Shown here one piece after another: positions 254 through 17,200 of a stretch of DNA of 26,300 nucleotides; the first letter of the stretch is position 1, and every line of letters begins with the position of its first letter. Under the pieces are notes generated by a model. The model made no database searches, was not told the origin of the DNA, and was given only the letters and a program-made list of their open reading frames with translations. The translations under genes were made by a program, and so were the position numbers. Location: positions 1-26,300 of the IMG/VR virus record IMGVR_UViG_3300017717_000062; one strand, given 5' to 3'. The stretch comes from a virus.

Positions 254-706
254 TTATACAGTATTCAGAACTGATTCTTGCAGTTCTCGACTCCTTCTTC
301 CTACTTGGTTAAACCATCTGCTGTCTTCCATTTCAGCTGCCATTTGTTTCCAATCATGTGATCTACATGCTTTTAACATATTACGGAACTTAGAAAGTCT
401 AGTCCCTCCTAGATTAAAACACATATTAACTATTACGTGTTGGATATTTTCGGGCAGGTTGTAAAAGGCTTCTTCTGTACCAAACACATGTATTGCTTCT
501 GCAAGATGCTTATTAAAATCATCTTCGTAGTACATATCTACTACTTCTTGAGATACTTTAGTACCAACTTCCCAGTCATATTCTGGGTCGTTTGGTTGAC
601 ATAGATGGCCTATGCCTAAAGTTTTATAACCTAGGCTATCTTTGTATATTTCTAAGACTTCACCTTCATGGCGTTTAATCTCAGCCTTACACCTTTGTAT
701 ATCCAT
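254..706 (-). CDS. T4-type lysozyme (GH24 endolysin)
   Basis: The protein should cleave the N-acetylmuramic acid-N-acetylglucosamine bond of peptidoglycan and release progeny at lysis. Counting from the ATG at 706 (150 aa), the catalytic triad of the T4 lysozyme family is visible with exact spacing: E14 in KRHEGEV, D23 in IYKDSLGY and T29 in YKTLGIGHL. In T4 lysozyme these are E11, D20 and T26, with the same 9 and 6 residue steps. The frame is open further to an ATG at 757, which would add 17 residues and overlap the upstream holin-like gene by 47 bp. I prefer 706 because it lies just after that gene's stop (713-711) and gives the usual N-terminus. Neither start has a strong Shine-Dalgarno sequence. 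No signal peptide is seen, so export depends on a holin. Confidence 0.9.
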   Translation of the reverse strand: MDIQRCKAEIKRHEGEVLEIYKDSLGYKTLGIGHLCQPNDPEYDWEVGTKVSQEVVDMYYEDDFNKHLAEAIHVFGTEEAFYNLPENIQHVIVNMCFNLGGTRLSKFRNMLKACRSHDWKQMAAEMEDSRWFNQVGRRSRELQESVLNTV

Positions 707-710
707 AGGT

Positions 711-941
711 TTAGGAGAAGAACCTATCAAACCCCGAAGCGACCGCAATAAGTACATATAACCCCACTATTAGTCTAGTAAATTTAGTATCCATAGCATC
801 AAACTTTTTATCACCTTTTTCTAATCTCTGTTCTATGTTCCCATATCTAATAGCGCACTCTCTTTCGTGCGCTTCGAGTTTAGTTATTGTTTCTTTGTTT
901 GATGGCATAAGTCTAAATAGTTTAGTTAACAGAAGCCTCAT
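711..941 (-). CDS. Small holin-like membrane protein (XhlA-like)
   Basis: This 76-residue protein has a charged, probably coiled-coil first part (residues about 13-55, with runs such as AHERECAIRYGNIEQRL) and one hydrophobic segment near the C-terminus (about 56-71, RLIVGLYVLIAVASGF), ending in DRFFS. That plan, helix then a single C-terminal membrane span, is like the XhlA/hemolysin-type holin-associated proteins. The gene lies directly upstream of the lysozyme and overlaps the preceding small gene by 20 bp. Context and topology suggest it opens or primes the inner membrane for lysozyme release. An internal ATG at 908 would drop 11 residues but has no ribosome binding site, whereas GAAG stands 7 nt before the ATG at 941. 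With only one membrane segment it could instead be an antiholin or accessory protein. Confidence 0.6.
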   Translation of the reverse strand: MRLLLTKLFRLMPSNKETITKLEAHERECAIRYGNIEQRLEKGDKKFDAMDTKFTRLIVGLYVLIAVASGFDRFFS

Positions 942-1260: not shown

Positions 1261-2427
1261 TTATATTTCTGAATCAACCAATACACCGTCTGCGTAGAAG
1301 TTAGACAAAGTTGTTTTTAATGTATAAGTTTTATGTGTTCCAGAATAAACCTCTATAGATGTTATTTCTTCTAAAGTGCCATCTTCTTTCATTAGTTTTT
1401 GTCCTACTGCTAACTGAGCACAATCTACATCATAGTTCTCTTTTGTTTTTGCAGGAGCAACAGAGGCTGCTGTATAGTTTTCTGTGTATAACATATGATC
1501 TTCTGTAGCCATTATGTTATTTATTTTATAAAGATTATCGTGTTCTACTGTCTTAACTTCTAATAAATCTACTAACTCTTTTTGGTTAGTATCTTTGTTC
1601 CATGACCATATTTTAGGTGGTGCTGTATCAATAATATCAGCTATAGTCATGTTGCCTTTTTGTGTAGAGACAAGCATATCTTCATGGATACAGAAACCTC
1701 CAGGACCACCTGGACCTTGGTTTTGTCCTCTGGTAGCTTGAAGCGACAAATGCTGCCCACTTGAACCTGGTCCTGAAATAGGCGTACCACTAGAACCAGC
1801 TCTTACGCTCCATTTTGGGGCTGTACCAGTATAACTACTTAAGCTTCTTGTTCCGCTTCCGCTATTTACAGTAACCGTCCATTGCCATACAGGACTATAG
1901 GTAGATGTACTTATATTTGCATAAGTACCTGATGCTGGTGAATATGAAGCAGGATTCTCTACAGATCCTACAAAACCACCTGATACTACTGAATAATCAC
2001 ATTTAGCTTGAAAGGTTGTACTAGCATGTCCGTCATACCCTACATAAAGAAAAGTAAAAATAGAAGCAGCAGCAGAGGTAAATCCTGTATATCTCATAGC
2101 TATTCTGTCATTAGTGGTGTCATTTTGAAACCCACAATTAAAACCAACTTGTACAAAAGAAGTGCTTGAATGGTTTTGACTCATAGAAGAAGCATTAGGA
2201 CCGTTGCCACCTAGACCTGTTAATTGAAACCAACTATTTTCCCCAGAACCTGGGAAGGCTGCAGAGGAAGCACCATACCATTCACTGAATGCCATAGTAG
2301 CCCCAGAGGATTTTCCTATTAAAGCTCTTATATCAGCATCATTAATAGACGCTTGAGATCCAGATGTGCCACCAGCCTCTACATGAATTTGATTTAAGGA
2401 TATTGCCCCTGAGCTTTGTAAAGGCAT
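1261..2427 (-). CDS. Tail-associated protein with C-terminal Hint (hedgehog/intein-type) domain
   Basis: Three parts are visible in 388 residues. Residues 1-55 (MPLQSSGAISLNQIHVEAGG and on to FSEWYGAS) are a short conserved opening of many marine-phage tail proteins. Residues 56-230 are Ser/Thr/Gly/aromatic-rich and probably beta-structured. After a Gly-rich linker (GQNQGPGGPGGF), residues 246-388 form a Hint fold: nucleophile C246 in CIHEDMLVSTQKGNMTIADI, a block-B-like TEDH at 308-311, and a block-F-like SNFYADGVLVDSEI at the end. Hint domains drive an N-to-S acyl shift that cuts the chain before the Cys. There is no C-terminal His-Asn and no C-extein, so splicing is not expected; self-cleavage or ester/ligation chemistry is. 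The gene starts 4 bp after the upstream stop with no clear Shine-Dalgarno sequence, suggesting coupling. It probably belongs to the distal tail or fibre. Confidence 0.75.
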   Translation of the reverse strand: MPLQSSGAISLNQIHVEAGGTSGSQASINDADIRALIGKSSGATMAFSEWYGASSAAFPGSGENSWFQLTGLGGNGPNASSMSQNHSSTSFVQVGFNCGFQNDTTNDRIAMRYTGFTSAAASIFTFLYVGYDGHASTTFQAKCDYSVVSGGFVGSVENPASYSPASGTYANISTSTYSPVWQWTVTVNSGSGTRSLSSYTGTAPKWSVRAGSSGTPISGPGSSGQHLSLQATRGQNQGPGGPGGFCIHEDMLVSTQKGNMTIADIIDTAPPKIWSWNKDTNQKELVDLLEVKTVEHDNLYKINNIMATEDHMLYTENYTAASVAPAKTKENYDVDCAQLAVGQKLMKEDGTLEEITSIEVYSGTHKTYTLKTTLSNFYADGVLVDSEI

Positions 2428-2431
2428 TTAT

Positions 2432-2716
2432 TTATTCTGCGGGAGCGATAACTCCAACGGCTACTTTATGTGCTACACCAGCTGCTACTTCTTCAATTCT
2501 TGCTAATGTCGATGCTTTATCGTACTTACCATCAGAATCTAAAACTACATTTACATTTCGTGTATGTGTTAGTGCAGGTGAATCAGAAGTAAAAGTAACT
2601 ATAACATCAGTTACATCTACTGTTGTATCAATAGTTTTACCTTCATTGTCTGGATCTGGCATAGAGGTTTTTCTTTTACCAGTGTATGTTTCATCTAATT
2701 TATATGTTATTGCCAT
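2432..2716 (-). CDS. Small tail-region protein, unknown function
   Basis: I do not recognise a named family. The 94-residue product begins MAITYKLDETYTGKRKTS, has a beta-rich middle with alternating hydrophobic residues (VDVTDVIVTFTSDSP, then THTRNVNVVLDSDGKYD) and ends with an Ala/Val-rich, probably helical stretch (TLARIEEVAAGVAHKVAVGV). There is no Cys, signal peptide or membrane segment. An AAAGGAG box 8 nt before the ATG lies inside the end of the fibre gene, and only 2 bp separate the two genes, so high expression together with the fibre is likely. Position between the fibre and the Hint protein suggests a tail structural or assembly role; that is inference from position only. Confidence 0.75.
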   Translation of the reverse strand: MAITYKLDETYTGKRKTSMPDPDNEGKTIDTTVDVTDVIVTFTSDSPALTHTRNVNVVLDSDGKYDKASTLARIEEVAAGVAHKVAVGVIAPAE

Positions 2717-2718
2717 AA

Positions 2719-5700
2719 TTATTCTCCTTTAAAAATTATATCATTTTTTTCTTTAAGTTCATCTATTTGTTTTTGTTGTTCTTTTATAGCTTCAACAAGT
2801 AAAGGTATTAATTTTTCATATTGAAGTCCTTTGAATCCGTCTTGTCTTGTTTTTACTATCTCTGGTAAAACTTCTTCAACTTCTTGTGCAACTAATCCAA
2901 TATCTTTTTTGCCTTCTGCATAAGCAGACTGTTTACTATTCCACTCAAAACTATATCCAGAAAGTTTAGAAAGTTTTTCCAATGGATTTGATATAACAGT
3001 GAGATTATCTTTTAGCCTTATATCAGAGCCTGAGTAAGCTACAATATCCGCTTCCGCTCTAAGATTACCAGTACTGTCAATACCTACAACATTATTAGTA
3101 TTATTTCTGAATACAAATCCACGGTTTGTTCCCGCAGTCATTTTAAAGTACATATTGTAGTCAGAAGTAGTTTCTCCGTCTACTCTTCCGTACGAACCAC
3201 TTGTTCCCATAAAAATTGCATAAGAACCATTTCCTACTGTACCAGTTCCACCCCAGAATCCAATTCCTTGACCGTTACCAGCTTCTATTGTTAAATTTCG
3301 TGCAGCTACTGCTTTATTTTGTGAAGCCCAAGTATAGCCGTCAAGATTATCAGCGTCTAAGCCAGAGCCTGAGCCATCGTTGCCATCATGCCATACCTTT
3401 CTCCAAGTTGGATAAGCACCTTCATTACTATTATAAGTAAACCACATATTACTATTATCATATGCAGTAAGAAGTGAAGAGTATCCTGTTCCTGTGTCTC
3501 TTCTACTTGTGATGTTATACCCAAAGTATGACTGACCATGACTTGAAGGTAATCCTGAAGAGGTACTTGCTTTTACCATTGTTTGGTAGCCAGAAGGCTG
3601 TGACCAAAGAGTTGTACTATTTAAGGTTGTTAAAGAATGTGCATCTAAACCCAATCTAGTTGTACTGCTTGTTACATATGCAGCACCATTTGTTAATTGG
3701 TTATTGTTTGTAGGTATTGTTGGTTTATTTTCTAAAGAATTATAATTAATATGACTTGCTATTTGATCGCCAAAGTTTGCAAGAGTGTAATAGCGAAGAT
3801 ATGCATCATCAGAAGCATATACTCTTGTAATTGTTTCAGTTGTTCTTGCTCCAGAAGTAGTATTAATCCAACCAGTCTGGATATATCCATTACTATCTGT
3901 TCTTACAACTTTATTTACTTCGTTGTTTCTTCCAGTATGTAGTTGTAGTCCATCTAGCAAGTCTGCGTCTAATCCTGAGCCCGAGCCATCATTTCCTGCA
4001 TGCCACATGGTATTACCGTTAGCATATATACCCGTTCTATTAAAGTAGAACCCACCAGATATATTAGTATAGATATGAGCATAAGATGTATTCATTGGTC
4101 CTAGCTGAATATATCCATGTTGTGTATTAAATTGAGCGTAAGTTTGCCCCGAAAATTGTAAATGACCTGAAGTATCCGCATAAAAACCTGATTTATTATT
4201 GTAACTATTACCTGAGTATAAAGAATAGAATCCATTGTTCTCACCTGCGAAAAATGCACCATCTACAAGAATAGACATCTGAGCATTATTTGGATGATCT
4301 CTTATAAATGCAATTTCTCCGCCATTTACTCCAAGTCCGCTATGCCTAGAACCACTAAAGTTCGAACCCATCCAACTTCCGCCTGATGGTACATAGTTAG
4401 CTCCAGAAGCAGGAGCATAGTAAGAACCCTGTTGTCCATCAAGAAGATCAGCATCTAGTCCTGAGCCAGAACCATCGTTAGCAGAATCCCACAAGTTAGC
4501 CCATGCTCTGTAAGTAGTATTCCAACCAGTACGATAGGCAAGACCACCATTCCCACTCGAAGCTTGTTCTGAAGCATAAAGTTGAAACTTAGCTTGTCCT
4601 GATTTAGAAAAACTAAGAGCCGTACCATAAGTATAATATCCTACGGGTCTATTAGAACCGCTATGATTTAAGACCGTATTCCAACTAGCCTCTGTCCCAT
4701 CAATAAATGTATTCCAATCTGCACTAGAAATGTCTGATCCTTGGTGAAGAATTGTGGTATTTGCTGGCTCATAATAAGAACCATGTTGTCCATCAAGTGT
4801 ATCAGCATCTAATCCAGAGCCTGATCCGTCATTACCTGCTGACCAAACTTTAACTAAACCACTGCCTTCATCAATTTGTAATTGACCATTTGTCGTTTTC
4901 TTAATATCCCAGCTAGCCCAGTTTCCGTCTAGGAAACCATAATTACTGCCGTCTCCATATATTTGCCATCTAAACTGACTACCACTATTTTGTCCCAAAA
5001 GACCCATTGTCCCAGTAGTTCCTGATTTGAATAAAATATTGTTTGTATTATTTGTAGTTAATACATGGTTATTGCTGGTAAACTTTAGTAATCCTCCTGT
5101 AGTTTGTATGTCAGAAGATACAGTAATCGTAGACCCTAGTGAAAAATTGTTTGCACCAGCTGCTATACCATCAAGTTTAGTTCCGTCTGCTGCTACATCT
5201 CTTCCATCTACTGTTCCTGATAAAGTAAAGTTACCGCTTCCATCTATTCTTGCAACTTGTCCTGCATTGGCATTACCAAAATAAGTTCCTGCTGTAGATG
5301 CTGCTGATTGTGAGCCGTACCAGTTTAGATATATTCCATTTCCATTGTCTGCATCAATATGTAGATTACCATTTGAGCAGCTAAGTTCTGCTCGTTTATT
5401 GGCTGTAGAACCGTTTAAATATAAAACACCGCTGTCAGTAGTAGTAAGAACTCCGACCTCAACATCCCCATCAAATCGAGAATTACCATAAACTTCAAAT
5501 TTTTGAGTGTTATTAAGATAAGGACCAAATCTTGCAATAGCAGTATAACTGTTTGCTGTGCCTTCAGAGATATCTAGAAATAATGGAAGACCCCCATTAA
5601 GATCTTGTTTTCTGAACCTGTGTCGATATTGACCTGTTACATAGTTACCATCGAACATCAAACCTTCAGTAGTATTGCTTGCCGCAACACTTCCTGTTAT

Positions 5701-8700
5701 TACACGAGCTTCTTCATTAAATCTTGCCTTACCATCAAAAATAACCGTTGGTGCTCTAAAATAGAAATTACCATCAGTATATGGCAGCCAGTTGTCTCCT
5801 GAGCTATGTCCATTACTTAATATAGCTCCTGAAAATGTTAAAGCACCTGTTGCTGAGTCAGTAGCATCACTTCTTAAAAAGGATCCGCTATTAACACCAT
5901 CTAATGTGTCAGCGTCTAGTCCCGATCCACTACCGTCATTGCCAGAACCCCATACAGTTCCTATGTTGGTATTTATTGTTGTTCTTTGTGATTCTCCAGC
6001 TCCTATTACTTGAAAATTCTTTCCTGACTGAAGTGTGTGTACTCTAAAGTGTCCTTGATAATTGTCTAAAGCAAATGATGAGCCACCACCTGTTGGAGCC
6101 CCAAAGTTTATTTCTCCACCTTCATTAGCACTTGTTCCTCCCAGAGTAGGAGTAGCAGCAAATGTAATTCCGCCTGTGGCAGTATCTGCTGCATCACTTC
6201 TTAAAAAGGATCCGCTATTAACACCATCAAGTAGATCGGCATCTAGACCTGAACCAGACCCATCGTTGCCTCCATGCCAAGCAGTGTTACCTTGAATTGT
6301 TGTAGCATAGTTAAGAGCAATTCCTGATACAGCATTATTGGTACTATTTGTGGTAATTTGAAATGGATATCCGCCTGTGTTGTTTAATCTTATTGAATAG
6401 TTTCCACCATCTGCTACATGCCACCATGTTGGGCTATTGGTAACATCAGTTTCTTGTAGTTTAATAATAGCGTTGCCACCAGATAAGACTATAGGATTTG
6501 GTAAACGAGCAGTGTTTATTGTTCCTGCATTTATATTTGAAGCGTTTCTGTAATATGATCCGTGTTGTCCATCTAAAAGATCAGCATCAAGACCAGAACT
6601 TGCACCGTCATTTCCAGCATGCCAAACTGCATTACCATTCACATAAGCAATATTTTGAGATATTTTAAAATCAGGAGTACCAGTCATTAAATGACCTGAA
6701 ACATCAAAACTTATATTATCTGGGCTGCCTTCGTAGTAGCCAATACCGTAGCCTGTATTACCTGCATTGTATTGCCATATAGGTAATATTGAAGAGCTAT
6801 GACCTGTTCCGTATAATCCGCTTGTAACGACTCTACCCGCAGTAATGTCTGGACTTCCTAATATTTGTCCGCCCCCGCTTAAAGTTAAATTGGCATCTAC
6901 AATTACATTGCCATTAAAATAACTAGTGCCATTATTGTAAAAATCATATGAACCATGAACAGAAGTAGCCATTACAGCAAATTTACCTGACGAATGACCA
7001 GTTGCCATACCAATATCACTTGCATTTGTAATATTCTGTGAACCCATATTAAGGACACCAGACATCGTGCCACCAGCTTTTGGTAGTTTGGTAGCTAATG
7101 CTGTTGTAAGTGTTGAGTTATAGTTTGAGTCATCGTTAATAGCTGCTGCAAGTTCGTTTAAAGTATCTAGTGTTCCAGGAGCACCGCCAATTAGAGAAGT
7201 AATTTCTTGTTGTACGAAGGCTGTATTAGCAAGTGCGGTAGTATTGGTACCTGCGGATGCAGTAGCAGTTGTAACATTTTCTAATACTCCAGCATTAGTA
7301 ATTCTTCTTGTTCCACCAACTTTAAAACTACCAACCACATTTACACTACTACTAGTTGCTGTTGAGTTAGAATCGACTAGGAATATTGTATCGCCACCAC
7401 TGTTGTAGACTCTAAAATCAGCATCGTCAAGAGCATCAAAAATAAGTGAGTTGCCCCCAAACTTAAGTCGCACAGCATTACCGCCAGCTCTTGTAAGTTT
7501 TGTACCATCATTTGTTCCATCTGCTTTTAGGAAATGTATATCTTTATCATTAGCTAATGTAATATCGCCTGCAAAGGTGGCATTTTGTGAGCTATTAAGA
7601 GTAAGAGCAGTTGTTGCATTTGTAACAAATTTCATATCGTTATTTGTTACACCTATTCTGTTAGCGTTACTTGTTGATGAATTATCTTCAAGAATTATAA
7701 AAGCATTAGCATCTGTTGATTCAAATTTAGCAACATAATCGTATGGTGTGGAAGTAACAAGAGGAAAGCTTCCAATAGAATTAGAGAATGTGCCAGTATT
7801 AGCAGTAGTTGTAAAAACACCCGCAGAGATAGTTCCAACTGTTATGTTTGGAGACCCAGACAAACCTGTTGCAGTTATGCCTAATGCGTTTATTTCGGAT
7901 TGAGTTTGGTCGGCTGTTGCCCCTGCTTCAATACCATCAAGTTTACTGTGGTCTCCACTTTCAAAAGGGACTGAAGCGGTACCATTAATTGTTAAAGCAT
8001 CTGTTTCTAATGTACCATCAACATCAACATTACCTGATATATCTAAAGAAGCTGCTATTATTTCCCCTTGGACTTGGACTTCTCCTGTTTGCTTTATTCT
8101 AAGTCTTTCTGTTGGTGTTATTGCTGTAGTGGACCCACCTGTGCCTTGAGGATTTGTGAAAAAAACTATTTCACCACTATTTCCAAATTCAATTTGTGAA
8201 GAACCCCCATAATTACCCTGAGTATAAGTGTATGCTGAAGAACCATCAGTAGTTATATTTGTATTAAAGGTTAATCGATGTGATCTTCCACCTGAGTGTA
8301 ATAATTCAAATATTTGTAATGCTCTATCGTTTGTTCCAGCACTGTCATCAATTCTTAAGGCTTCGCTTACCCCATAAGTAGAACCTGGGTTTGTATCGAT
8401 TGTTACTAAACCTGTTACGTCTATGCCTGTTGAGGTTGTGGAAAACTTTTGGTCACCATCATAGTAAAGCTCTACCGCATTATTTTTTTTGGCTTTGACC
8501 ATATTTTTATTGCCAGTAGTACCTCTTAAATATATTGCATCTCCATTAGTATCTAAATATAATCCGCCAGTACCAAGTTCTTTTATATAACTAAAAGAGC
8601 CTGTACTGTAAATTCGTAGGTCATTATTTGTACCAAACCGAGCTTCTACATTGTCTGGGAAAGTAAGACCGTTGGCATCTAGGTAGGCTTCTATCTCATC

Positions 8701-9012
8701 GGTTATAGCTACGCCTGTTTGGGAAAATAAGTTTAGGATTCCAGCGGTAAGTCTTAGTTCTGCTACATCACCGGTAGAAAATGCACGTGCGGTAGTGTCG
8801 TCCTGGGCCCTGACGACAGTAAGGGTGTTACTACTTCTAGCAGTAACTTTAACAACTTCTACATTAGTGCCATCATCAAAAGTACAAAAAAAGGTATTGC
8901 CCCCAGAAAGGGACGGTAGAGCGCTACCATCTGCGACTGTTACAGAAGTAGCCGAAGATGTTAGGCTAGATGCAAGGGTTGTTTTTGCATTGTTCTTAAA
9001 AACAACTGCCAC
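2719..9012 (-). CDS. Giant tail fibre with C-terminal peptidase S74 chaperone domain
   Basis: The 2097-residue protein should be the host-binding fibre. Residues 1-100 (VVFKNNAKTTLASSLTSSAT, then a beta-rich stretch to LTAGILNLF) resemble virion-anchoring ends of marine phage fibres. The long shaft is Asn/Gly/Ser/Thr-rich and carries seven copies of a motif of the form NDGSGSGLDADLLDG, plus two SKLDGI/TKLDGI-type variants (DHSKLDGIEAGA and DGTKLDGIAAGA). Residues 1996-2097 are a peptidase S74 intramolecular chaperone: SDIRLKDNL with the Ser1996/Lys2001 pair used for self-cleavage, then GLVAQEVEEVLPE and a C-terminal coiled coil (KLIPLLVEAIKEQQKQIDEL). The family trimerises fibres and then cuts itself off. 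The start is GTG at 9012, supported by AAGGAG 7 nt upstream. It lies 17 bp after the 141-aa gene and is followed by two small tail genes. Confidence 0.9.
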   Translation of the reverse strand: MAVVFKNNAKTTLASSLTSSATSVTVADGSALPSLSGGNTFFCTFDDGTNVEVVKVTARSSNTLTVVRAQDDTTARAFSTGDVAELRLTAGILNLFSQTGVAITDEIEAYLDANGLTFPDNVEARFGTNNDLRIYSTGSFSYIKELGTGGLYLDTNGDAIYLRGTTGNKNMVKAKKNNAVELYYDGDQKFSTTSTGIDVTGLVTIDTNPGSTYGVSEALRIDDSAGTNDRALQIFELLHSGGRSHRLTFNTNITTDGSSAYTYTQGNYGGSSQIEFGNSGEIVFFTNPQGTGGSTTAITPTERLRIKQTGEVQVQGEIIAASLDISGNVDVDGTLETDALTINGTASVPFESGDHSKLDGIEAGATADQTQSEINALGITATGLSGSPNITVGTISAGVFTTTANTGTFSNSIGSFPLVTSTPYDYVAKFESTDANAFIILEDNSSTSNANRIGVTNNDMKFVTNATTALTLNSSQNATFAGDITLANDKDIHFLKADGTNDGTKLTRAGGNAVRLKFGGNSLIFDALDDADFRVYNSGGDTIFLVDSNSTATSSSVNVVGSFKVGGTRRITNAGVLENVTTATASAGTNTTALANTAFVQQEITSLIGGAPGTLDTLNELAAAINDDSNYNSTLTTALATKLPKAGGTMSGVLNMGSQNITNASDIGMATGHSSGKFAVMATSVHGSYDFYNNGTSYFNGNVIVDANLTLSGGGQILGSPDITAGRVVTSGLYGTGHSSSILPIWQYNAGNTGYGIGYYEGSPDNISFDVSGHLMTGTPDFKISQNIAYVNGNAVWHAGNDGASSGLDADLLDGQHGSYYRNASNINAGTINTARLPNPIVLSGGNAIIKLQETDVTNSPTWWHVADGGNYSIRLNNTGGYPFQITTNSTNNAVSGIALNYATTIQGNTAWHGGNDGSGSGLDADLLDGVNSGSFLRSDAADTATGGITFAATPTLGGTSANEGGEINFGAPTGGGSSFALDNYQGHFRVHTLQSGKNFQVIGAGESQRTTINTNIGTVWGSGNDGSGSGLDADTLDGVNSGSFLRSDATDSATGALTFSGAILSNGHSSGDNWLPYTDGNFYFRAPTVIFDGKARFNEEARVITGSVAASNTTEGLMFDGNYVTGQYRHRFRKQDLNGGLPLFLDISEGTANSYTAIARFGPYLNNTQKFEVYGNSRFDGDVEVGVLTTTDSGVLYLNGSTANKRAELSCSNGNLHIDADNGNGIYLNWYGSQSAASTAGTYFGNANAGQVARIDGSGNFTLSGTVDGRDVAADGTKLDGIAAGANNFSLGSTITVSSDIQTTGGLLKFTSNNHVLTTNNTNNILFKSGTTGTMGLLGQNSGSQFRWQIYGDGSNYGFLDGNWASWDIKKTTNGQLQIDEGSGLVKVWSAGNDGSGSGLDADTLDGQHGSYYEPANTTILHQGSDISSADWNTFIDGTEASWNTVLNHSGSNRPVGYYTYGTALSFSKSGQAKFQLYASEQASSGNGGLAYRTGWNTTYRAWANLWDSANDGSGSGLDADLLDGQQGSYYAPASGANYVPSGGSWMGSNFSGSRHSGLGVNGGEIAFIRDHPNNAQMSILVDGAFFAGENNGFYSLYSGNSYNNKSGFYADTSGHLQFSGQTYAQFNTQHGYIQLGPMNTSYAHIYTNISGGFYFNRTGIYANGNTMWHAGNDGSGSGLDADLLDGLQLHTGRNNEVNKVVRTDSNGYIQTGWINTTSGARTTETITRVYASDDAYLRYYTLANFGDQIASHINYNSLENKPTIPTNNNQLTNGAAYVTSSTTRLGLDAHSLTTLNSTTLWSQPSGYQTMVKASTSSGLPSSHGQSYFGYNITSRRDTGTGYSSLLTAYDNSNMWFTYNSNEGAYPTWRKVWHDGNDGSGSGLDADNLDGYTWASQNKAVAARNLTIEAGNGQGIGFWGGTGTVGNGSYAIFMGTSGSYGRVDGETTSDYNMYFKMTAGTNRGFVFRNNTNNVVGIDSTGNLRAEADIVAYSGSDIRLKDNLTVISNPLEKLSKLSGYSFEWNSKQSAYAEGKKDIGLVAQEVEEVLPEIVKTRQDGFKGLQYEKLIPLLVEAIKEQQKQIDELKEKNDIIFKGE
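5864..5901. repeat. 38-bp exact direct repeat, copy 1
   Basis: This stretch inside the fibre gene is identical over 38 bp to 6191-6228. It encodes the GVNSGSFLRSDA part that follows two of the GLDADxLDG motifs. Identity at the DNA level, while the rest of the two modules differs, points to a recent duplication or gene conversion. Confidence 0.85.
6191..6228. repeat. 38-bp exact direct repeat, copy 2
   Basis: Second copy of the 38-bp sequence found at 5864-5901, same orientation, offset 327 bp (109 codons, so in the same reading frame). Recombination between the copies would delete one shaft module and keep the fibre frame open. Confidence 0.85.
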
Positions 9013-9463: not shown

Positions 9464-10891
9464 CTAGTTTAGTGTCCCGATATTTAGTCCCGCTGCGTTA
9501 AAAACGCTATGGCTTTGAACGGTAACAATATTTATAACTTCTGATATTGTAGCACTATCTGTATGAGAATTGCCAAGAGATAGCGATAATGCTTCAGAAA
9601 CCGAAAAGATATCAGATTTACCAAGATTTGGGGATATGGCCTGTGTATCATTTAAAGTAGGGGTATCTAGTACTCCTTTAGTAAAAGCTAGTATCTCATT
9701 ATCAGTAAAACTAAAATTATCTGCGTGTATAGTAGCTACAGCTAAACTAGCCGCGTCCGTAGGACTAAATGTATCTGTTTTACCTAAACCTAGATCAAGC
9801 TCTTCTGTATCCGTTAAGGTCGATGTATCTGTTACGCCTTTAGTAAAACTTAAAATTTCTGTATCTGCAAACGTAAAACTATCGCTAAAAGGTTTTATAG
9901 CTTCTATTGCAGGTAAATCTGTAAACCCGTACGTGTCGCCTAACAGTTTAGCAAATACGTACGAATGATCGTCTGCAAATCCAATCACATTGGTTTTACC
10001 AGAATCTACGTCTGTTTGTAAAGGGTCATTGACAGAAGCAATATCATCTAAAGATACAGCATCTGTAAAAGTTCTAGAAAAACTAACTATACGGCTAAAT
10101 ACATCCCCCATACCAAAAGTATCTGTTTTACCTAACTCTGGTTGTAAAGAAGAAGCATCTGCAAACGTTATTAAATCAGTAGACAAAAGAGCATCAAAAC
10201 TAAGGGCGGGTGTATCTGTAAAACTAAAAGCATCTGTTTTGTTTACACCAAAACTAGCAACTTGGGTGTCAGTTAAGGTGGGGGTATCTAATACCCCTTT
10301 GTTAACATCCCTAAAGTCAGTATCTGCAAAGTTAAAAGTGTCTGCATAGAGGTTATTTAAACTAAGGCTAGGAGCATCTGCGAAACTAAAAGAGTCTGAG
10401 TATGAGGGTTGTACGGATAAAGATGTTGTATCTGTAAAGGCAAAAGTATCACTAAACTCACGTAGGAACGTTATTAAGATGGCTACAACTTCTCCAAAGG
10501 CTAAAGAATCGTTAAGAGTTTTACCTACAAATAATTCTGGTACATCTTGTATGATGGGTGTATCAATTAAAGACTTACCTACTTCTAGTGCTGTGTCCTC
10601 TAACATTGTAAGAGTTACAACATTGGGTGAGTTGTTTTGCGGTATGAAATATAAATTCTTACTATCAGCATCTAACAGTACATCTACTGCAGATAAATTT
10701 ACATAACTAACTAAAGAGTTAAGGTTAACGTATTCAACTATTGTTTGTAATAATTGGCTGTGTATAGAGGTTTTAGGAGAAGTAAAGTTAAGACTAGTGC
10801 GGGTATCAGCTTGCGATACTACTATCTTAAGCTCAGAAAAAGAGACGGACGCTTTTAGATCTACATAACTAAGTTTTGCACGAAAGGCCAT
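9464..10891 (-). CDS. Tail-region protein of tandem 18-residue repeats
   Basis: The 475-residue product has an N-terminal part (1-100) of beta-rich sequence without clear relatives. A repeat array follows at residues about 101-454, then a 21-residue end. Each unit is about 18 residues with the consensus L-x3-K-x2-TDTFSFTDTxx; examples are VNKTDAFSFTDTPALSF and LGKTDTFSPTDAASLAV. Some units replace F by P/T/L (GVLDTPTLTDTQ). No Cys is visible, and there is no membrane segment. Regular 'D-[TS]-F-x-F-x-D' spacing suggests one beta-turn or coil per repeat, possibly with Asp-bound calcium, forming a fibre or solenoid; that is inference. Its ATG overlaps the stop of the upstream Ig-like gene by one base (TAATG at 10893-10889), so the two are translationally coupled. 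Probable tail or adsorption structure. Confidence 0.75.
   Translation of the reverse strand: MAFRAKLSYVDLKASVSFSELKIVVSQADTRTSLNFTSPKTSIHSQLLQTIVEYVNLNSLVSYVNLSAVDVLLDADSKNLYFIPQNNSPNVVTLTMLEDTALEVGKSLIDTPIIQDVPELFVGKTLNDSLAFGEVVAILITFLREFSDTFAFTDTTSLSVQPSYSDSFSFADAPSLSLNNLYADTFNFADTDFRDVNKGVLDTPTLTDTQVASFGVNKTDAFSFTDTPALSFDALLSTDLITFADASSLQPELGKTDTFGMGDVFSRIVSFSRTFTDAVSLDDIASVNDPLQTDVDSGKTNVIGFADDHSYVFAKLLGDTYGFTDLPAIEAIKPFSDSFTFADTEILSFTKGVTDTSTLTDTEELDLGLGKTDTFSPTDAASLAVATIHADNFSFTDNEILAFTKGVLDTPTLNDTQAISPNLGKSDIFSVSEALSLSLGNSHTDSATISEVINIVTVQSHSVFNAAGLNIGTLN
9530..10591 (-). repeat. Array of about nineteen 18-residue coding repeats
   Basis: By hand alignment I count about nineteen units of 18 residues (a few of 19, one longer with an insert near residues 300-320). 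They are diverged at the DNA level, so this is an old, selected repeat rather than a fresh expansion. Two units are closely alike (GVLDTPTLTDTQ and GVLDTPTLNDTQ), as are two others (SFTKGVTDTSTLTDTE and AFTKGVLDTPTLNDTQ). Confidence 0.8.
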
Positions 10892-11278: not shown

Positions 11279-14200
11279 CTATAATGCACTGTAAAATGGA
11301 ATTAAATTCTTAGGTTTAATGTCACCTGCTATTAAGTCATAACCCGTGCCTATGGTAGGCCCTAATGGCCCTACCCATAAAGGGTCTCCGTATCTTTTTC
11401 TTTCTATGAATAAAGGTAGCGCCATAGTGTAGGGCCCTAACACTCCTGACCTGTCTAGTATTTCTGTACTGTATTCGCCATAATCCATTTCTAAAGATCT
11501 TCTGTAGTTTTTATCTTGTGGGCTAACTCCTGGTAAAGCATATGCTAATCCTATTTTGAACCTTTCACGTAAATCTAAGCCTAGCATTGTTAGAGGCATC
11601 AAAGTTACAGCAGCCATAAACAATGGTATTGCGGCTCCTTTCATTCCTGCTTCTGTCATTCTAGACTGCATCTCCCTACCCGTACCCATCACAATGTTCT
11701 TACCGTAAGAATAAAAGAAAGATTTAAGTTGCCAAACTAAAGCAAACCTAGGGTCAGAAGCCCAGATAGGTCTTTCTGCTGCATTAGGCCTAACGATAGC
11801 TTCATCTACAAACCTAGCTGCTGCTAATCTAACTCTTTGGTTAGATGGAGCTGTGATATCGCCACCACCCCAGGCTATAACTTCTTCAGCAGTTACATCT
11901 AACTCTGCTAAATACCTTTGTGCGGTTTCATCCCCTTCTAAAGCCTTACTAGCGTTATCTAAAAGAAACACCCTGGCCATGCCTGCAGCAAATCGTCTAG
12001 TAAAATTAGTAAACTGTTCAAGTTGTATAAATCTAAAAAATTGGTTTGTAGCTTTTTTTGTGCCTTTACTTGTATATTGAAGCTCTCCTGCTCCTACATA
12101 CTGTTCATTCATAGCGTTTATACCTACAGCTCCTATATTTTTTCCAAAGGTATTTAATTCTTCATCCGACATAGCTGCGGTAATAGTACGCATAGTCTCT
12201 AAGAAATTAGGAATGCCTCTGTATCTTAAAATAGGACCAGCCACGTCTGGGAAAGAAGCAAAAACAGATAGGGGCAGTAAAGTAGCAACATTAAAAAATA
12301 GTCCTGCATTATTAATGTTTCGTAAAACAGCGTTGTCTACAGGGTCAACTCTACCTAAAATTGCCTTTACAGAATCTTCAGCTAACTTTCTTTCTTTAGG
12401 GTCTTTTATAAGAGCTAACTGTTCTTCAATAGCTTTAGACCCTCCTATATCAGCAAAACCTCTTCTTTTTACAGAGTTTTGTATATATCTTTGCAAAGCG
12501 TAAGAAGCATCTTCTAATAAACCAGCGTTTCTTAAATCTTGAGTATTTAAATTTCTAAAAAATTCTGCCCTTTTTGCTAACATACCCACTTCAAAAACTT
12601 GGTCTTCTTCTCTACTAAAGTTTGGATCTTCATCCGCTTTACTCAACATTTCTGTAACTGCATCTACTAACTCTGATTTATTTACTTGAGGGTTAGCTGC
12701 AGCAAGTAGATTTACTAAATCTTCTCTTAAACCAGGGTCATTAAGAAGTTCTTCCATCTTATACATCCTAGGGAAATAATTTTCTAAGAAGCCAACTCCT
12801 AATTCACCTAAGTTTAAATCGTTGTAATGCTTAATTAAAAACGTGCGCATGTTTTGAGCTTGTGGAGAAAGTTGTTCGAAAGGGGTGTTTGGGTTTTCTA
12901 GCTCTTGTAGAGTTTTTTCTACTGTTTCATTCATGTCTGCTGCTGTTTCTACATTTAAGATAGTTTGAATTTCATTCATTTTTGAACGAGCGAGACTAAA
13001 CACTTTAGTTAAGTATCCAGTTTTCTCTGTAGTGCCTACTCTTTGCTTAAATAATCTAGCCAAAGTTTTGCCTGGTTTACCAAAACTTCTAAGCAGCCCA
13101 TCAGTATCTTGGAAGATTGTTCTAAGGGTACGAGTAGCTGAATCTGTTTGTGTATTAGGTATTTCACCTGTCTCTATAATTTTATCAACTGTTCGTTTTA
13201 GATTCTTTTCCGCGCCTTTGGTTATGACTTTTTGAACTGCTTCTACCTGTTCTTCTATTTTAGCTTTTTGCTGATATTGAAATTTGTTATTTTTATTAGA
13301 AGACATTACTTCTTGTATGTAATCATTAAAAGCTGGGTCTTGTGTAAACCTTCTTTTAGCTACTGCTGAATACTTAGTGAAGAAAGCTTTTACTTTGGTG
13401 GCTATATTTTTAAAGAAAGACTCTGTTTGATTTGTAGCTTTTTTAGTTTCATCTATTAAAAATACAGCTATTTGATCTGACACCCATTCTTGAAAGCCTT
13501 TATCACCTTCTAGTTGATATTGCTTAGTAGTACCGAGGGCTTTTGCTTTTTCAAAAGCTTTTTGTAAAGCATTTCTAAGGGTTGGGTTCTTTAAACTCCT
13601 ATCTAATTCTTGATAAATAAAAGTATGCCCTATCTCGTGGGCCACAGTAAAAAGCCTCGCGCCTTGGTCTTCTACATTAAAACCATCTCTAGTTTGTATG
13701 ATGAGTACATCGGTGTTGCCGCGGCCTCGTACGTTATAGCCTCTGTAATTAGACGTAGGTCCGAACTTAGCTTGTGCCGCTTTTGCTCTTTTTTCTAAAT
13801 TTTTATCGTCTAAAGTTATAGTATCTTCTGTGCTAAAGAATAGTATTTCTCTATTTATACCAAGTGTATTTTTTGCAAGATTTTTTAAAGTATCTAAAAC
13901 CTCTACCCCAAGGTGCTTTTCTATAGTAGTGCTATATTTAATAATTTCTTTTGACGCTTTTGCTTGAATCTTACTAAGTTTTTGCTGTTCTTTAGACTGT
14001 GCTGGTTTTTTAGTCCACTCTCTAAATAAAGCACTACTATCATAAGCATATTGGTCAGTAGGATCCTCTTGAATTCTTTGTTCCATTTCGTTTTTTTGAG
14101 CATCAAATAAGTTTTGTTCTGCGATTGCTAGCCTATCATTAGAGTATTCAAGATTTTTTTCTGCTCTTTCCACAGGTCGTTGTAATTGTTGTTCCCTAGT

Positions 14201-17200
14201 GCTTCTATTGATTGCCCCTTCAGTTGAACCTTCAGGTGTAAAAGGCCTTACTTTTTTACCTTTTTTACTTACAAACACACCTGCTTTTTTCTCTTGCTCG
14301 GTTAAACCTTCGGATAAAGCTTCTGTTTCTAGCCCAGCAATAATTTTTTCATCTACAAGTTTGTCTTTTCGTTCTGCTACGTCTTCTTCAGCTAGGTCTC
14401 GAACTGCTTCTAAGCCTTCTATATCATCTCTTTCAATCCCTTCTCTTGACTCATCTTCAGTTAGTTTTACTCTGCCTTTACCACCTTCGCCTTTTCGTGC
14501 TCGTGGTACTGTTGATCCTATTGATGCCTGCATCTGATCTAATGTAAGCGCTCTGCCGTCTTTGTTATATACAGGTGCGTAGCTTGTTTGTTCATCACTA
14601 AAAGGTTTGCCTTCAAATAAAAGCGTATAACCATTGTTAGCCATCTCAGCCATTAAAAACCCAAAACCTCCTATTGCAGATTGAAAGTCTCCTTCTATTG
14701 AGTTGCCAAAAGATTTAGAAAGATTTCTACCCACGTTTATAAATTTGTTTGGGTCTACAGGAGTTTTTTCTCCGTCTTTTTCTAATTCAAATCTTGTAAA
14801 ATTATTTCTACTTCTAGGTTTGCCGGGTTCAGCTGGTTTGTTTGTCTTTCCTTTACCAACAGTTTTTGCAACTCTTTCTGCTAAATCCGGAGTAACAGTC
14901 TGTGTGCCTACAGCAGTAGATACCCCTGGCATGTCATACTTATAAATAACAACGCCATCTCCTCTTGAACTAAAACCATAAGCTTGATTACCAAGTAGGT
15001 CTGCAGCCAGCCTTTTATTAACCTCTGCATACCTTTGTACTGCAGTCTGACTGACCTTACCTTCTGACACTAGCTTGTCGAACTCTGTTACAAACTCAGC
15101 AGGTAGGGCTGTAATTTCTTCATCGCCTTTAATTACTTGATTGTAAAACTCATCTCCTTTTTTAACTACAAATTTTTCATTTTGTACTTTTGCAAAAGGT
15201 TTACCAGTTTGCTTGTTCGCGATGGGGTTTTCAAATGATCCCTGTTGTTCTTGTTTTTTATTTCCTGTTCTAGCTTTTAAATCAGGTATTATTTGTGGTT
15301 CTGTTTGAGTATCTTGAGCAAACAACCTTTCTTGTTCAGTAGTAAAAGTTTCGAAAGGTGTTTGAGAAGCTTCGTAATCATTTAAATCTTCTTCCATTGC
15401 GGATTGTTCTTCTTTGACTGGGAGCTTGCCCGCACGTTCTTCATTAAAAGCTTCTAAGGTTTGTACAACAATATTTCTATTATTAGTTCCATCTGGTCCG
15501 CCTATATAGTTTTGCGCAGCTGTAATAGCTGTTTGTTCTTCTTCTCCTATTTGTACATCATATCTTTTTAATACTTCGCTATTTTGTCCACGTACAGATA
15601 CTACAACTCTCTGTCCTTTCCCTTCTGTAGGAGGGTTGTTTCCATAGATATCTAAAAAGTTTAGTAGTCTTTGTCTATTTAAAGGTGACGCACTCATGCT
15701 GTTTACAAATCTTTGATTTAAAGTTGGGTCTAAAGAGAAGAAGGTGCCCACCCCTGGAATCATAGTTCTTTCTAAACCAGGCGTTTTATTTACTCTATTA
15801 GAAATAGGACCGAACTCTGAATAGTTTTGTTCATCTACCCATACAAACTCTCTACCTATTTTAGGGTCTATTAAGTCTGCGAATTGCGCGCTTATGTCGC
15901 TTTGTGTTTCTAAGATAGGATTTGTTTCGCCTTGTTTTGTTTGTTGATAGAGGTCAAACATTTTCTTTTCATATCCTATCTCCGCTAACTCTCTCATTTT
16001 TCCTAACACTGCGGTACCTGTACCAGTTCCAGTACCTATACCCATACCTCCTATAGCTCCCATATACAACGCTTGAAGTCTATCTAAATTAGCTTGGGTC
16101 TTTGTGTATTCACTGTCTATTCTAAATTTTTGTTGTACAGAAAGTTCTTCTTGCCCTAACTCTGCTATCCCTTCTGATGCTCCAGTTAATAAACCAGCGC
16201 CTAAACCTTTAGAAACAATATCTAATGCAGATTTAGCAGACGAAGGTGCGTCTATTACAGCTCTTTCATTTATTAAATTTTTAGCTGCTTTGCTTTTTAC
16301 ATTATTCGTAATAGCTTTATATATTAAAGCTTCGCTTCCTACCCCTATAGCACCAAACGCAATACCTTGTTGTTGTGCTCTAAAAGAAGTTATAGGATCT
16401 GTCATGCCTTGTTCGGCATAATCCCCAAAGGCAATACCAGCACCCATAGGTTGTTCTTGTGCAAAAGCACCTGCTACTGCCCCTACAGTCGCATACTTAT
16501 TTCTAAGTTGGCCACGTAGGTAAGGATAAAGAAGTTTAATAACTTTTTCTTCATCCGGCGTCATGGTGATTGCAGTTTTTTTGCCTTGTTTCTTTAAAAC
16601 ATCTAGAGTTACTTTTTTCTTTAAAATATCTTCTACTTCGGTCTGTACAAACTTTTTAGAAGCTAAACTAGCTGGAATAGTAGACAGCCCGCTACTTCCT
16701 GCTGCAGCAAAAAGTTTACTAGAACCTGTAAGATAGCTTAAACTTGCACCGACGCCTGCACCCGTCATAGCCGCAATAACACTAGTAATAGCAGTAGGAG
16801 CAAACTGTCCTGTAGCTTCTATAGCACTATCTATAAAACCGTCAAAAGTAGGGGCTTCTATAAACTCTTCAAACGATTGGCTATCTAAAAGATAATAAGC
16901 ACCTTGTTCTTGTTCTTCTTTGGCACGTCTTAGCGATTCATTCATTCGCTCTTCATTGCCGGTTATAGAAGCAATAGAAGCGTCAAAGTTTTGAAATGAA
17001 CTTACAAGGTTTTTTTGTCCGGTTTTAAAAGAAGCACGAAATCGTTCTATACCAGAAGTTAGGTCATCTACTTCTGTACGATCTTCTGGTCCAAATACTC
17101 TATCAGATTGAGTGCCTATTAAAGGTTCTAAGTCTTTAAGATTATTAGCCCTTATGTCCCTTTCGGATTGGCTGCCTATGAACTCTTTTGTTATTGCCAT
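11279..17200 (-). CDS. Giant internal virion/ejection protein with zinc metalloprotease motif
   Basis: At 1973 residues this is the second largest product. Its place after smaller internal proteins matches gp15/gp16 of T7-like phages, which leave the head and form the DNA ejection channel. Visible parts: charged N-terminus (1-130); Gly/Ala-rich hydrophobic segments (133-170 and others up to about 400); a long polar, Glu/Lys-rich middle (about 600-1150); a zincin motif HEIGH at 1188-1192 in a VAHEIGHTF context, with EWVSD at 1238-1242 as candidate third-ligand site; and a C-terminal third with hydrophobic segments (for example 1853-1875). The latter ends in a Pro/Gly/Tyr-rich tail. The fold suggests a peptidase working on host envelope or virion proteins; no lytic transglycosylase motif is evident. 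The ATG at 17200 follows the upstream stop by 3 bp with no good Shine-Dalgarno sequence, so coupling is likely. The function is inferred. Confidence 0.8.
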   Translation of the reverse strand: MAITKEFIGSQSERDIRANNLKDLEPLIGTQSDRVFGPEDRTEVDDLTSGIERFRASFKTGQKNLVSSFQNFDASIASITGNEERMNESLRRAKEEQEQGAYYLLDSQSFEEFIEAPTFDGFIDSAIEATGQFAPTAITSVIAAMTGAGVGASLSYLTGSSKLFAAAGSSGLSTIPASLASKKFVQTEVEDILKKKVTLDVLKKQGKKTAITMTPDEEKVIKLLYPYLRGQLRNKYATVGAVAGAFAQEQPMGAGIAFGDYAEQGMTDPITSFRAQQQGIAFGAIGVGSEALIYKAITNNVKSKAAKNLINERAVIDAPSSAKSALDIVSKGLGAGLLTGASEGIAELGQEELSVQQKFRIDSEYTKTQANLDRLQALYMGAIGGMGIGTGTGTGTAVLGKMRELAEIGYEKKMFDLYQQTKQGETNPILETQSDISAQFADLIDPKIGREFVWVDEQNYSEFGPISNRVNKTPGLERTMIPGVGTFFSLDPTLNQRFVNSMSASPLNRQRLLNFLDIYGNNPPTEGKGQRVVVSVRGQNSEVLKRYDVQIGEEEQTAITAAQNYIGGPDGTNNRNIVVQTLEAFNEERAGKLPVKEEQSAMEEDLNDYEASQTPFETFTTEQERLFAQDTQTEPQIIPDLKARTGNKKQEQQGSFENPIANKQTGKPFAKVQNEKFVVKKGDEFYNQVIKGDEEITALPAEFVTEFDKLVSEGKVSQTAVQRYAEVNKRLAADLLGNQAYGFSSRGDGVVIYKYDMPGVSTAVGTQTVTPDLAERVAKTVGKGKTNKPAEPGKPRSRNNFTRFELEKDGEKTPVDPNKFINVGRNLSKSFGNSIEGDFQSAIGGFGFLMAEMANNGYTLLFEGKPFSDEQTSYAPVYNKDGRALTLDQMQASIGSTVPRARKGEGGKGRVKLTEDESREGIERDDIEGLEAVRDLAEEDVAERKDKLVDEKIIAGLETEALSEGLTEQEKKAGVFVSKKGKKVRPFTPEGSTEGAINRSTREQQLQRPVERAEKNLEYSNDRLAIAEQNLFDAQKNEMEQRIQEDPTDQYAYDSSALFREWTKKPAQSKEQQKLSKIQAKASKEIIKYSTTIEKHLGVEVLDTLKNLAKNTLGINREILFFSTEDTITLDDKNLEKRAKAAQAKFGPTSNYRGYNVRGRGNTDVLIIQTRDGFNVEDQGARLFTVAHEIGHTFIYQELDRSLKNPTLRNALQKAFEKAKALGTTKQYQLEGDKGFQEWVSDQIAVFLIDETKKATNQTESFFKNIATKVKAFFTKYSAVAKRRFTQDPAFNDYIQEVMSSNKNNKFQYQQKAKIEEQVEAVQKVITKGAEKNLKRTVDKIIETGEIPNTQTDSATRTLRTIFQDTDGLLRSFGKPGKTLARLFKQRVGTTEKTGYLTKVFSLARSKMNEIQTILNVETAADMNETVEKTLQELENPNTPFEQLSPQAQNMRTFLIKHYNDLNLGELGVGFLENYFPRMYKMEELLNDPGLREDLVNLLAAANPQVNKSELVDAVTEMLSKADEDPNFSREEDQVFEVGMLAKRAEFFRNLNTQDLRNAGLLEDASYALQRYIQNSVKRRGFADIGGSKAIEEQLALIKDPKERKLAEDSVKAILGRVDPVDNAVLRNINNAGLFFNVATLLPLSVFASFPDVAGPILRYRGIPNFLETMRTITAAMSDEELNTFGKNIGAVGINAMNEQYVGAGELQYTSKGTKKATNQFFRFIQLEQFTNFTRRFAAGMARVFLLDNASKALEGDETAQRYLAELDVTAEEVIAWGGGDITAPSNQRVRLAAARFVDEAIVRPNAAERPIWASDPRFALVWQLKSFFYSYGKNIVMGTGREMQSRMTEAGMKGAAIPLFMAAVTLMPLTMLGLDLRERFKIGLAYALPGVSPQDKNYRRSLEMDYGEYSTEILDRSGVLGPYTMALPLFIERKRYGDPLWVGPLGPTIGTGYDLIAGDIKPKNLIPFYSAL

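Follow-up and report, generated by a model that had tools for sequence, protein, structure and literature searches.

A C-terminal Hint domain with predicted self-removal in a tail-fibre-associated protein of a marine phage

The window, a stretch of 26,300 nucleotides from IMG/VR virus record IMGVR_UViG_3300017717_000062, carries on its minus strand a gene (1261..2427) whose 388-amino-acid product is a tail-fibre-associated protein with a carboxyl-terminal Hint domain. Upstream lies the gene for a 2097-amino-acid tail fibre (2719..9012, minus strand), recognized by tail fibre PHROGs, which terminates in a Peptidase_S74 autochaperone (2851-3027; PF13884, E-value 6.5e-14, residues 1996-2054). A 94-amino-acid ORF (2432..2716, minus strand) separates the two genes, and a similar ORF occupies the same place in one related contig (L007). 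A phage lysozyme gene (254..757, minus strand; PF00959, 4.7e-10) closes the module downstream and is found downstream also in several relatives. Two further minus-strand genes of the window stand out by their products: a 1973-amino-acid virion protein (11279-17200) with the metalloprotease-like motif VAHEIGHTF, unusual for an internal virion protein, and a 475-amino-acid protein (9464-10891) made of degenerate repeats of the type DTFSFTDxxxLS.

The tail context assumed in the original prediction is supported, as the Hint gene follows an S74 fibre gene in the window and in most of its relatives. An S74 fibre is encoded within about 1 kb upstream, often with a 4-base overlap, in 39 of the 42 Hint-bearing loci that have at least 400 bases upstream, several of these contigs being near-identical so that they do not count as 42 independent cases. 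Hint-less proteins are likewise placed behind S74 fibres (63 out of 74), including gp019 of the cultured Alteromonas phage AD45-P1. The arrangement spans morphotypes. A tail sheath (1e-75) marks the L028 contig as that of a myophage; the window, with its major head phrog_334, its portal phrog_156 and a weak Gp80 match, resembles a podophage. In phage T4, genes 37 and 38 are a fibre and fibre-tip gene pair. The T4-like gp38 fibre-tip companions resemble the window gene by positional analogy only: their genes come immediately after that of a long fibre, in many cases overlapping it by a few bases, and the body of the protein is variable. Gene position thus suggests that the 388-residue protein is a fibre-tip companion. 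The amino-terminal module of the protein, which has an SGxIS motif, occurs frequently behind S74 fibres (L091-L169), attached to very varied and sometimes glycine-rich bodies; these proteins seem to form a family, as yet unnamed, of companions or tip proteins of the fibre.

Judged by its relatives, the protein is an assembly of three swappable units. Residues 1-56 (MPLQSSGAISLNQIHVEAGG...; 2260..2427, minus strand) form an amino-terminal module common to many marine phage proteins (phrog_26746, 5e-21) and 75% identical to that of AD45 phage gp019. The variable body (residues 57-233; 1729..2259, minus strand) recurs in relatives with and without the Hint domain. It leads into the linker GQNQGPGGPGGF (residues 234-245; 1693..1728, minus strand), the terminus of the Hint-less relatives in the alignment with their Hint-bearing counterparts. 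A glycine-rich stretch had been noted directly before Cys246, where this linker lies. AF2 models residues 1-245 poorly (pLDDT 51). The amino-terminal module has 553 relatives in IMG/VR. One of the best 80 is the Hint-bearing L002 contig, while the other 79, among them 76 complete ORFs, yielded no Hint domain; the Hint domain is therefore an optional add-on. No Hint-less body homologous to that of the window was found among these 79 proteins. Units are also exchanged between relatives. L001 shares body and Hint domain with the window at 99-100% identity and differs in its first 56 residues (29% identity), and L011-L013 combine a related Hint domain with a different body.

The Hint domain itself comprises residues 246-388 (1264..1692, minus strand). 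The Pfam model Intein_splicing hits the single sequence below threshold (3.3e-4), and the profile searches that had been proposed as a check do retrieve Hint and intein proteins. A profile of four sequences matches the NrdJ-1 intein at 8.7e-5, and the family profile of 20 sequences matches Tetrahymena BIL2 at 3.1e-15, NrdJ-1 at 3.3e-9, a Clostridium BIL at 1.5e-8 and ataxin-1 at 0.015. The AF2 model of the domain, built from an alignment of nine sequences, is of high confidence (pLDDT 92.5, pTM 0.85). Its top structural match by Foldseek and VIA-align is again BIL2 (TM 0.86; Z 20.7, 1.6 Å over 137 residues), followed by inteins, the Clostridium BIL domain (Z 16.4) and hedgehog (Z 15.7-15.9). 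About 85 PDB chains score Z of at least 8 against the model, and each of the 50 listed entries is a Hint protein. The prediction of a Hint fold in the last 143 residues is thereby confirmed by modelling and profile comparison.

An alternative assignment to the AXH domain, the ataxin-1 module, was dropped. On this domain Pfam AXH (PF08517) gives an E-value of 1.8e-4, slightly ahead of Intein_splicing and equally below threshold, but the same model picks up an undoubted three-Hint protein at 5e-34, which reveals cross-reaction. As ataxin-1 also trails BIL2 by far in the family profile and the structural matches listed are Hint proteins throughout, the chance of an AXH fold is negligible. The hits of PF08517 to true Hint proteins (L065, with the value of 5e-34, and L076) either mislead annotation or point to remote kinship.

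The catalytic residues lie where the original prediction had put them. Structural alignment ranges place Cys246 (1690..1692, minus strand), the block A nucleophile, opposite intein Cys1 and residue 258 of hedgehog. Block B is the TEDH motif of residues 308-311 (1495..1506, minus strand), and the chain finishes with the strand SNFYADGVLVDSEI, the span from Cys246 to Ile388 being 143 residues. Residue 386 falls opposite the Asn that terminates inteins (residue 440 in RecA, the end in gp41-1). Asp385-Ser386 (1270..1275, minus strand) therefore stand at the His-Asn positions, and block G is lost. Only two residues and the stop codon follow; the absence of a terminal His-Asn and of a C-extein had been correctly recognized, and it makes splicing impossible. 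Trans-splicing with the downstream gene was discarded as well, the next ORF (922-1212) displaying no intein-like feature.

Conservation was assessed in 72 viral sequences that fall into 19 clusters at 62% identity, with a median identity of 34% between clusters. The loci were fetched by patterns near residues 296-303 and 376-383, which biases conservation there; Cys246 and TEDH are outside these patterns. Cys246 and His311 are invariant (72/72), Asp310 is kept in 71 of the 72 sequences and position 308 is Thr or Ser. The His-Asn positions are occupied by DS, DG, HS, SS, NS, YD or HD and, in a group further removed, by HN followed by K. In a tree from which those columns were left out, their state changes at least three times, with the amino-terminal residues unchanged.

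This pattern bears on the reading in which the domain does not cleave at all and serves as a stable cap, a chaperone or an additional carboxyl-terminal binding domain, its catalytic residues being structural relics. A fibre-tip protein could plausibly carry an extra carboxyl-terminal domain, the splicing residues are gone, and position 4 of block F is Thr369, an Asp never being found there in the family. In many inteins this Asp influences the amino-terminal reactions. BIL2, however, has a His at that position in the family profile alignment, and so the missing Asp need not imply inactivity. Relics would be expected to drift alike, but Cys246 and His311 persist across clusters of about 34% median identity while block G drifts. 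Absence of cleavage is therefore unlikely, although some members of the family may be inactive. A zinc switch of the BIL2 type (H48/H125) was considered and rejected, His296 and His365 not aligning with those histidines in the profile alignment.

Nei-Gojobori comparisons with L002, L003, L004 and L008 give dN/dS of 0.08-0.19 for the Hint part and 0.15-0.29 for the body, some dS values being near saturation, which points to purifying selection on the Hint domain. The carboxyl-terminal end LVDSEI or LVHSEI is maintained across dozens of contigs. These observations speak against a decaying, functionless intein whose C-terminal half-reaction and C-extein were lost by truncation. As that explanation would have it, inteins are common in phages and the domain, lacking an endonuclease, is of the mini-Hint type, but a common end and purifying selection do not fit decay, the host proteins occur whole without the Hint domain, and no conserved active site that could harbour an intein is present in the body. 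This origin is accordingly very improbable. Loss of the C-extein through a frameshift was rejected in view of the end shared among relatives and of the lack of any Hint remnant after the stops of the Hint-less proteins.

These Hint-less proteins were found by a scan with the body alone, which returned 12 loci, five of them the known Hint-bearing ones and seven without the domain. The latter end in ATRGTAGPGGGGL (L176, L177), ATRGTAGPGGGGGGL (L181) or TRGTTPQPQGPA (L178), each directly before the stop codon, and similarly in L175, L179 and L180; the window reads ATRGQNQGPGGPGGF at the same junction, followed by Cys246. The stop codon thus takes the place of the Cys codon or a place beside it. 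A second body type behaves in the same manner: L210 ends ITFQGGGFAP-stop where its relatives continue through GGGGGFGF into the Cys. No Hint remnant was seen behind the stops of the seven loci and of L210. The predicted amino-terminal product consequently exists in nature as a whole, stand-alone protein. Ends at the junction fit removal of the domain, but the addition of a non-cleaving domain to the terminus of the protein would produce the same coincidence.

Several known systems serve for comparison. The domain has the fold, the block A nucleophile and the block B T-x-x-H of the HINT superfamily. It does not have the His-Asn, +1 nucleophile and C-extein of class 1 inteins, nor the C-terminal His-Asn of A-type BILs, having Asp385-Ser386 instead. 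Accordingly, the class 1 mini-inteins NrdJ-1, Spl DnaX, Ssp DnaB and gp41-1 and the Clostridium thermocellum BIL (2lwy) share its fold and amino-terminal residues but keep a terminal Asn and, in the case of the inteins, a +1 nucleophile and C-extein as well. The blocks A, B and F without block G are those of B-type BILs, which also reside in variable proteins; the likeness is one of block content, and the host protein differs in being a phage tail-fibre companion. B-type BILs, in which block G is missing, reportedly catalyse cleavage that is not coupled to splicing (PMC4031507). BIL2, from the Tetrahymena BUBL1 polyubiquitin locus (PDB 6y75, 6tmm), is the closest in fold and the best PDB match in sequence, and shares the position of Cys1, the T-x-x-H motif, an S-x-x-P stretch after block B and the absence of the block F Asp. 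It differs by keeping its terminal Asn (N143) and by lying between two ubiquitin-like domains, whereas nothing follows the Hint domain of the window. The hedgehog autoprocessing domain (1at0) is likewise carboxyl-terminal, with the Hint fold (Z 15.7), a Cys nucleophile and no His-Asn, but it is followed by a sterol-recognition region, while the window protein and its group relatives stop at the Hint domain.

It is probable, on this sequence evidence, that the domain is a B-type-BIL-like Hint that cuts itself off before Cys246 in a simple release. In the folded protein Cys246 would attack the Phe245-Cys246 peptide bond in an N-to-S acyl shift aided by Thr308 and His311. An external agent, in the simplest case water or a small thiol, would resolve the resulting thioester, freeing the 143-residue Hint domain and leaving an amino-terminal protein that ends in GPGGPGGF. 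The Hint would hence be a removable C-terminal unit of BIL type, mounted on the amino-terminal module, the variable body and the glycine-rich tail of a protein presumably located at the fibre tip. The expectation of cleavage before Cys246, or of trapping of the thioester, is retained as the best inference, backed by the Hint-less relatives that end at this very bond. The lipid or sugar transfer also envisaged, by analogy with hedgehog, finds no particular support: no acceptor-binding part follows the Hint domain, and the nearest structure is BIL2, not hedgehog.

Another conceivable fate of the thioester is attack by a nucleophile, an amine or a hydroxyl, that belongs to a second virion protein such as the fibre or to some other molecule. 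The amino-terminal protein would then be covalently attached via residue 245, in the manner in which BIL2 conjugates the ubiquitin-like domain beside it and hedgehog conjugates cholesterol. BIL2, the nearest structure, has been reported to make isopeptide bonds with lysine (PMC8616854), which makes such covalent transfer the main rival of simple release, and a candidate partner, the fibre, is encoded next door. Yet there is no acceptor-binding region after the Hint domain, relatives that share the body but have no Hint do without activation of their carboxyl terminus, and residue 245 varies among relatives instead of being constant; acyl transfer is on balance unlikely. Less probable still is a reading in which the thioester, placed at the terminus of a fibre-tip protein, would be a one-use chemical coupling group, held until a nucleophile of the host surface or of a partner virion protein attacks. 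The phage protein would then become covalently bound and the Hint cap be shed, attachment being triggered or irreversible.

For simple release, a role can be proposed from another self-removing element of phage fibres. S74 domains are removed by autoproteolysis once they have helped the fibre to fold (PMC10579305). These intramolecular chaperones of fibres and spikes are, like the Hint domain, carboxyl-terminal units, but they have another fold and another chemistry (Ser-dependent and trimeric), the analogy being one of role only. By this analogy the Hint domain is likely a removable folding aid or cap. If so, the assembly of phage fibres would involve a second self-removing module in addition to the S74 autochaperone. 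The prediction is a sharp one, with one bond, one cysteine and a defined product, and the matched natural proteins with and without Hint offer material for testing the purpose of the domain.

Known examples of Hint chemistry come from inteins, hedgehog, BILs and toxins. Uncultured phage proteins with Hint domains are already present in the BFVD, some of them under names that refer to collagen, fibronectin or PASTA repeats, so that the occurrence of Hint in phages is not new as such. In the open-access literature searched, no paper on Hint domains of phage fibre-associated proteins was found, nor any account of an optional, removable carboxyl-terminal Hint on a marine phage tail-fibre companion. 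Among cultured phages none with a Hint domain of the window type was found, a terminase intein being the sole match of one search.

Three other groups of Hint proteins were met. The second phage protein group (L063-L066, L068-L070, L078 and L079; also L051, L059, L060, L071 and L076) has one to several tandem Hint domains behind a conserved amino-terminal domain, MKGTxFSxDFxxDxNGxLRLLEINTDT..., with no Pfam match; its Hints are joined by HN-x-x-C and the last one ends LVHNK at the carboxyl terminus. In L067 and L072-L075 the carboxyl-terminal Hint ends LVY-stop, with both block G positions truncated, and is preceded by GGGGGGCC linkers. Proteins of ~410-430 amino acids from cyanobacterial genomes (L081-L087) contain a Hint ending HNK, followed by a glycine-rich stretch and about 245 further residues.
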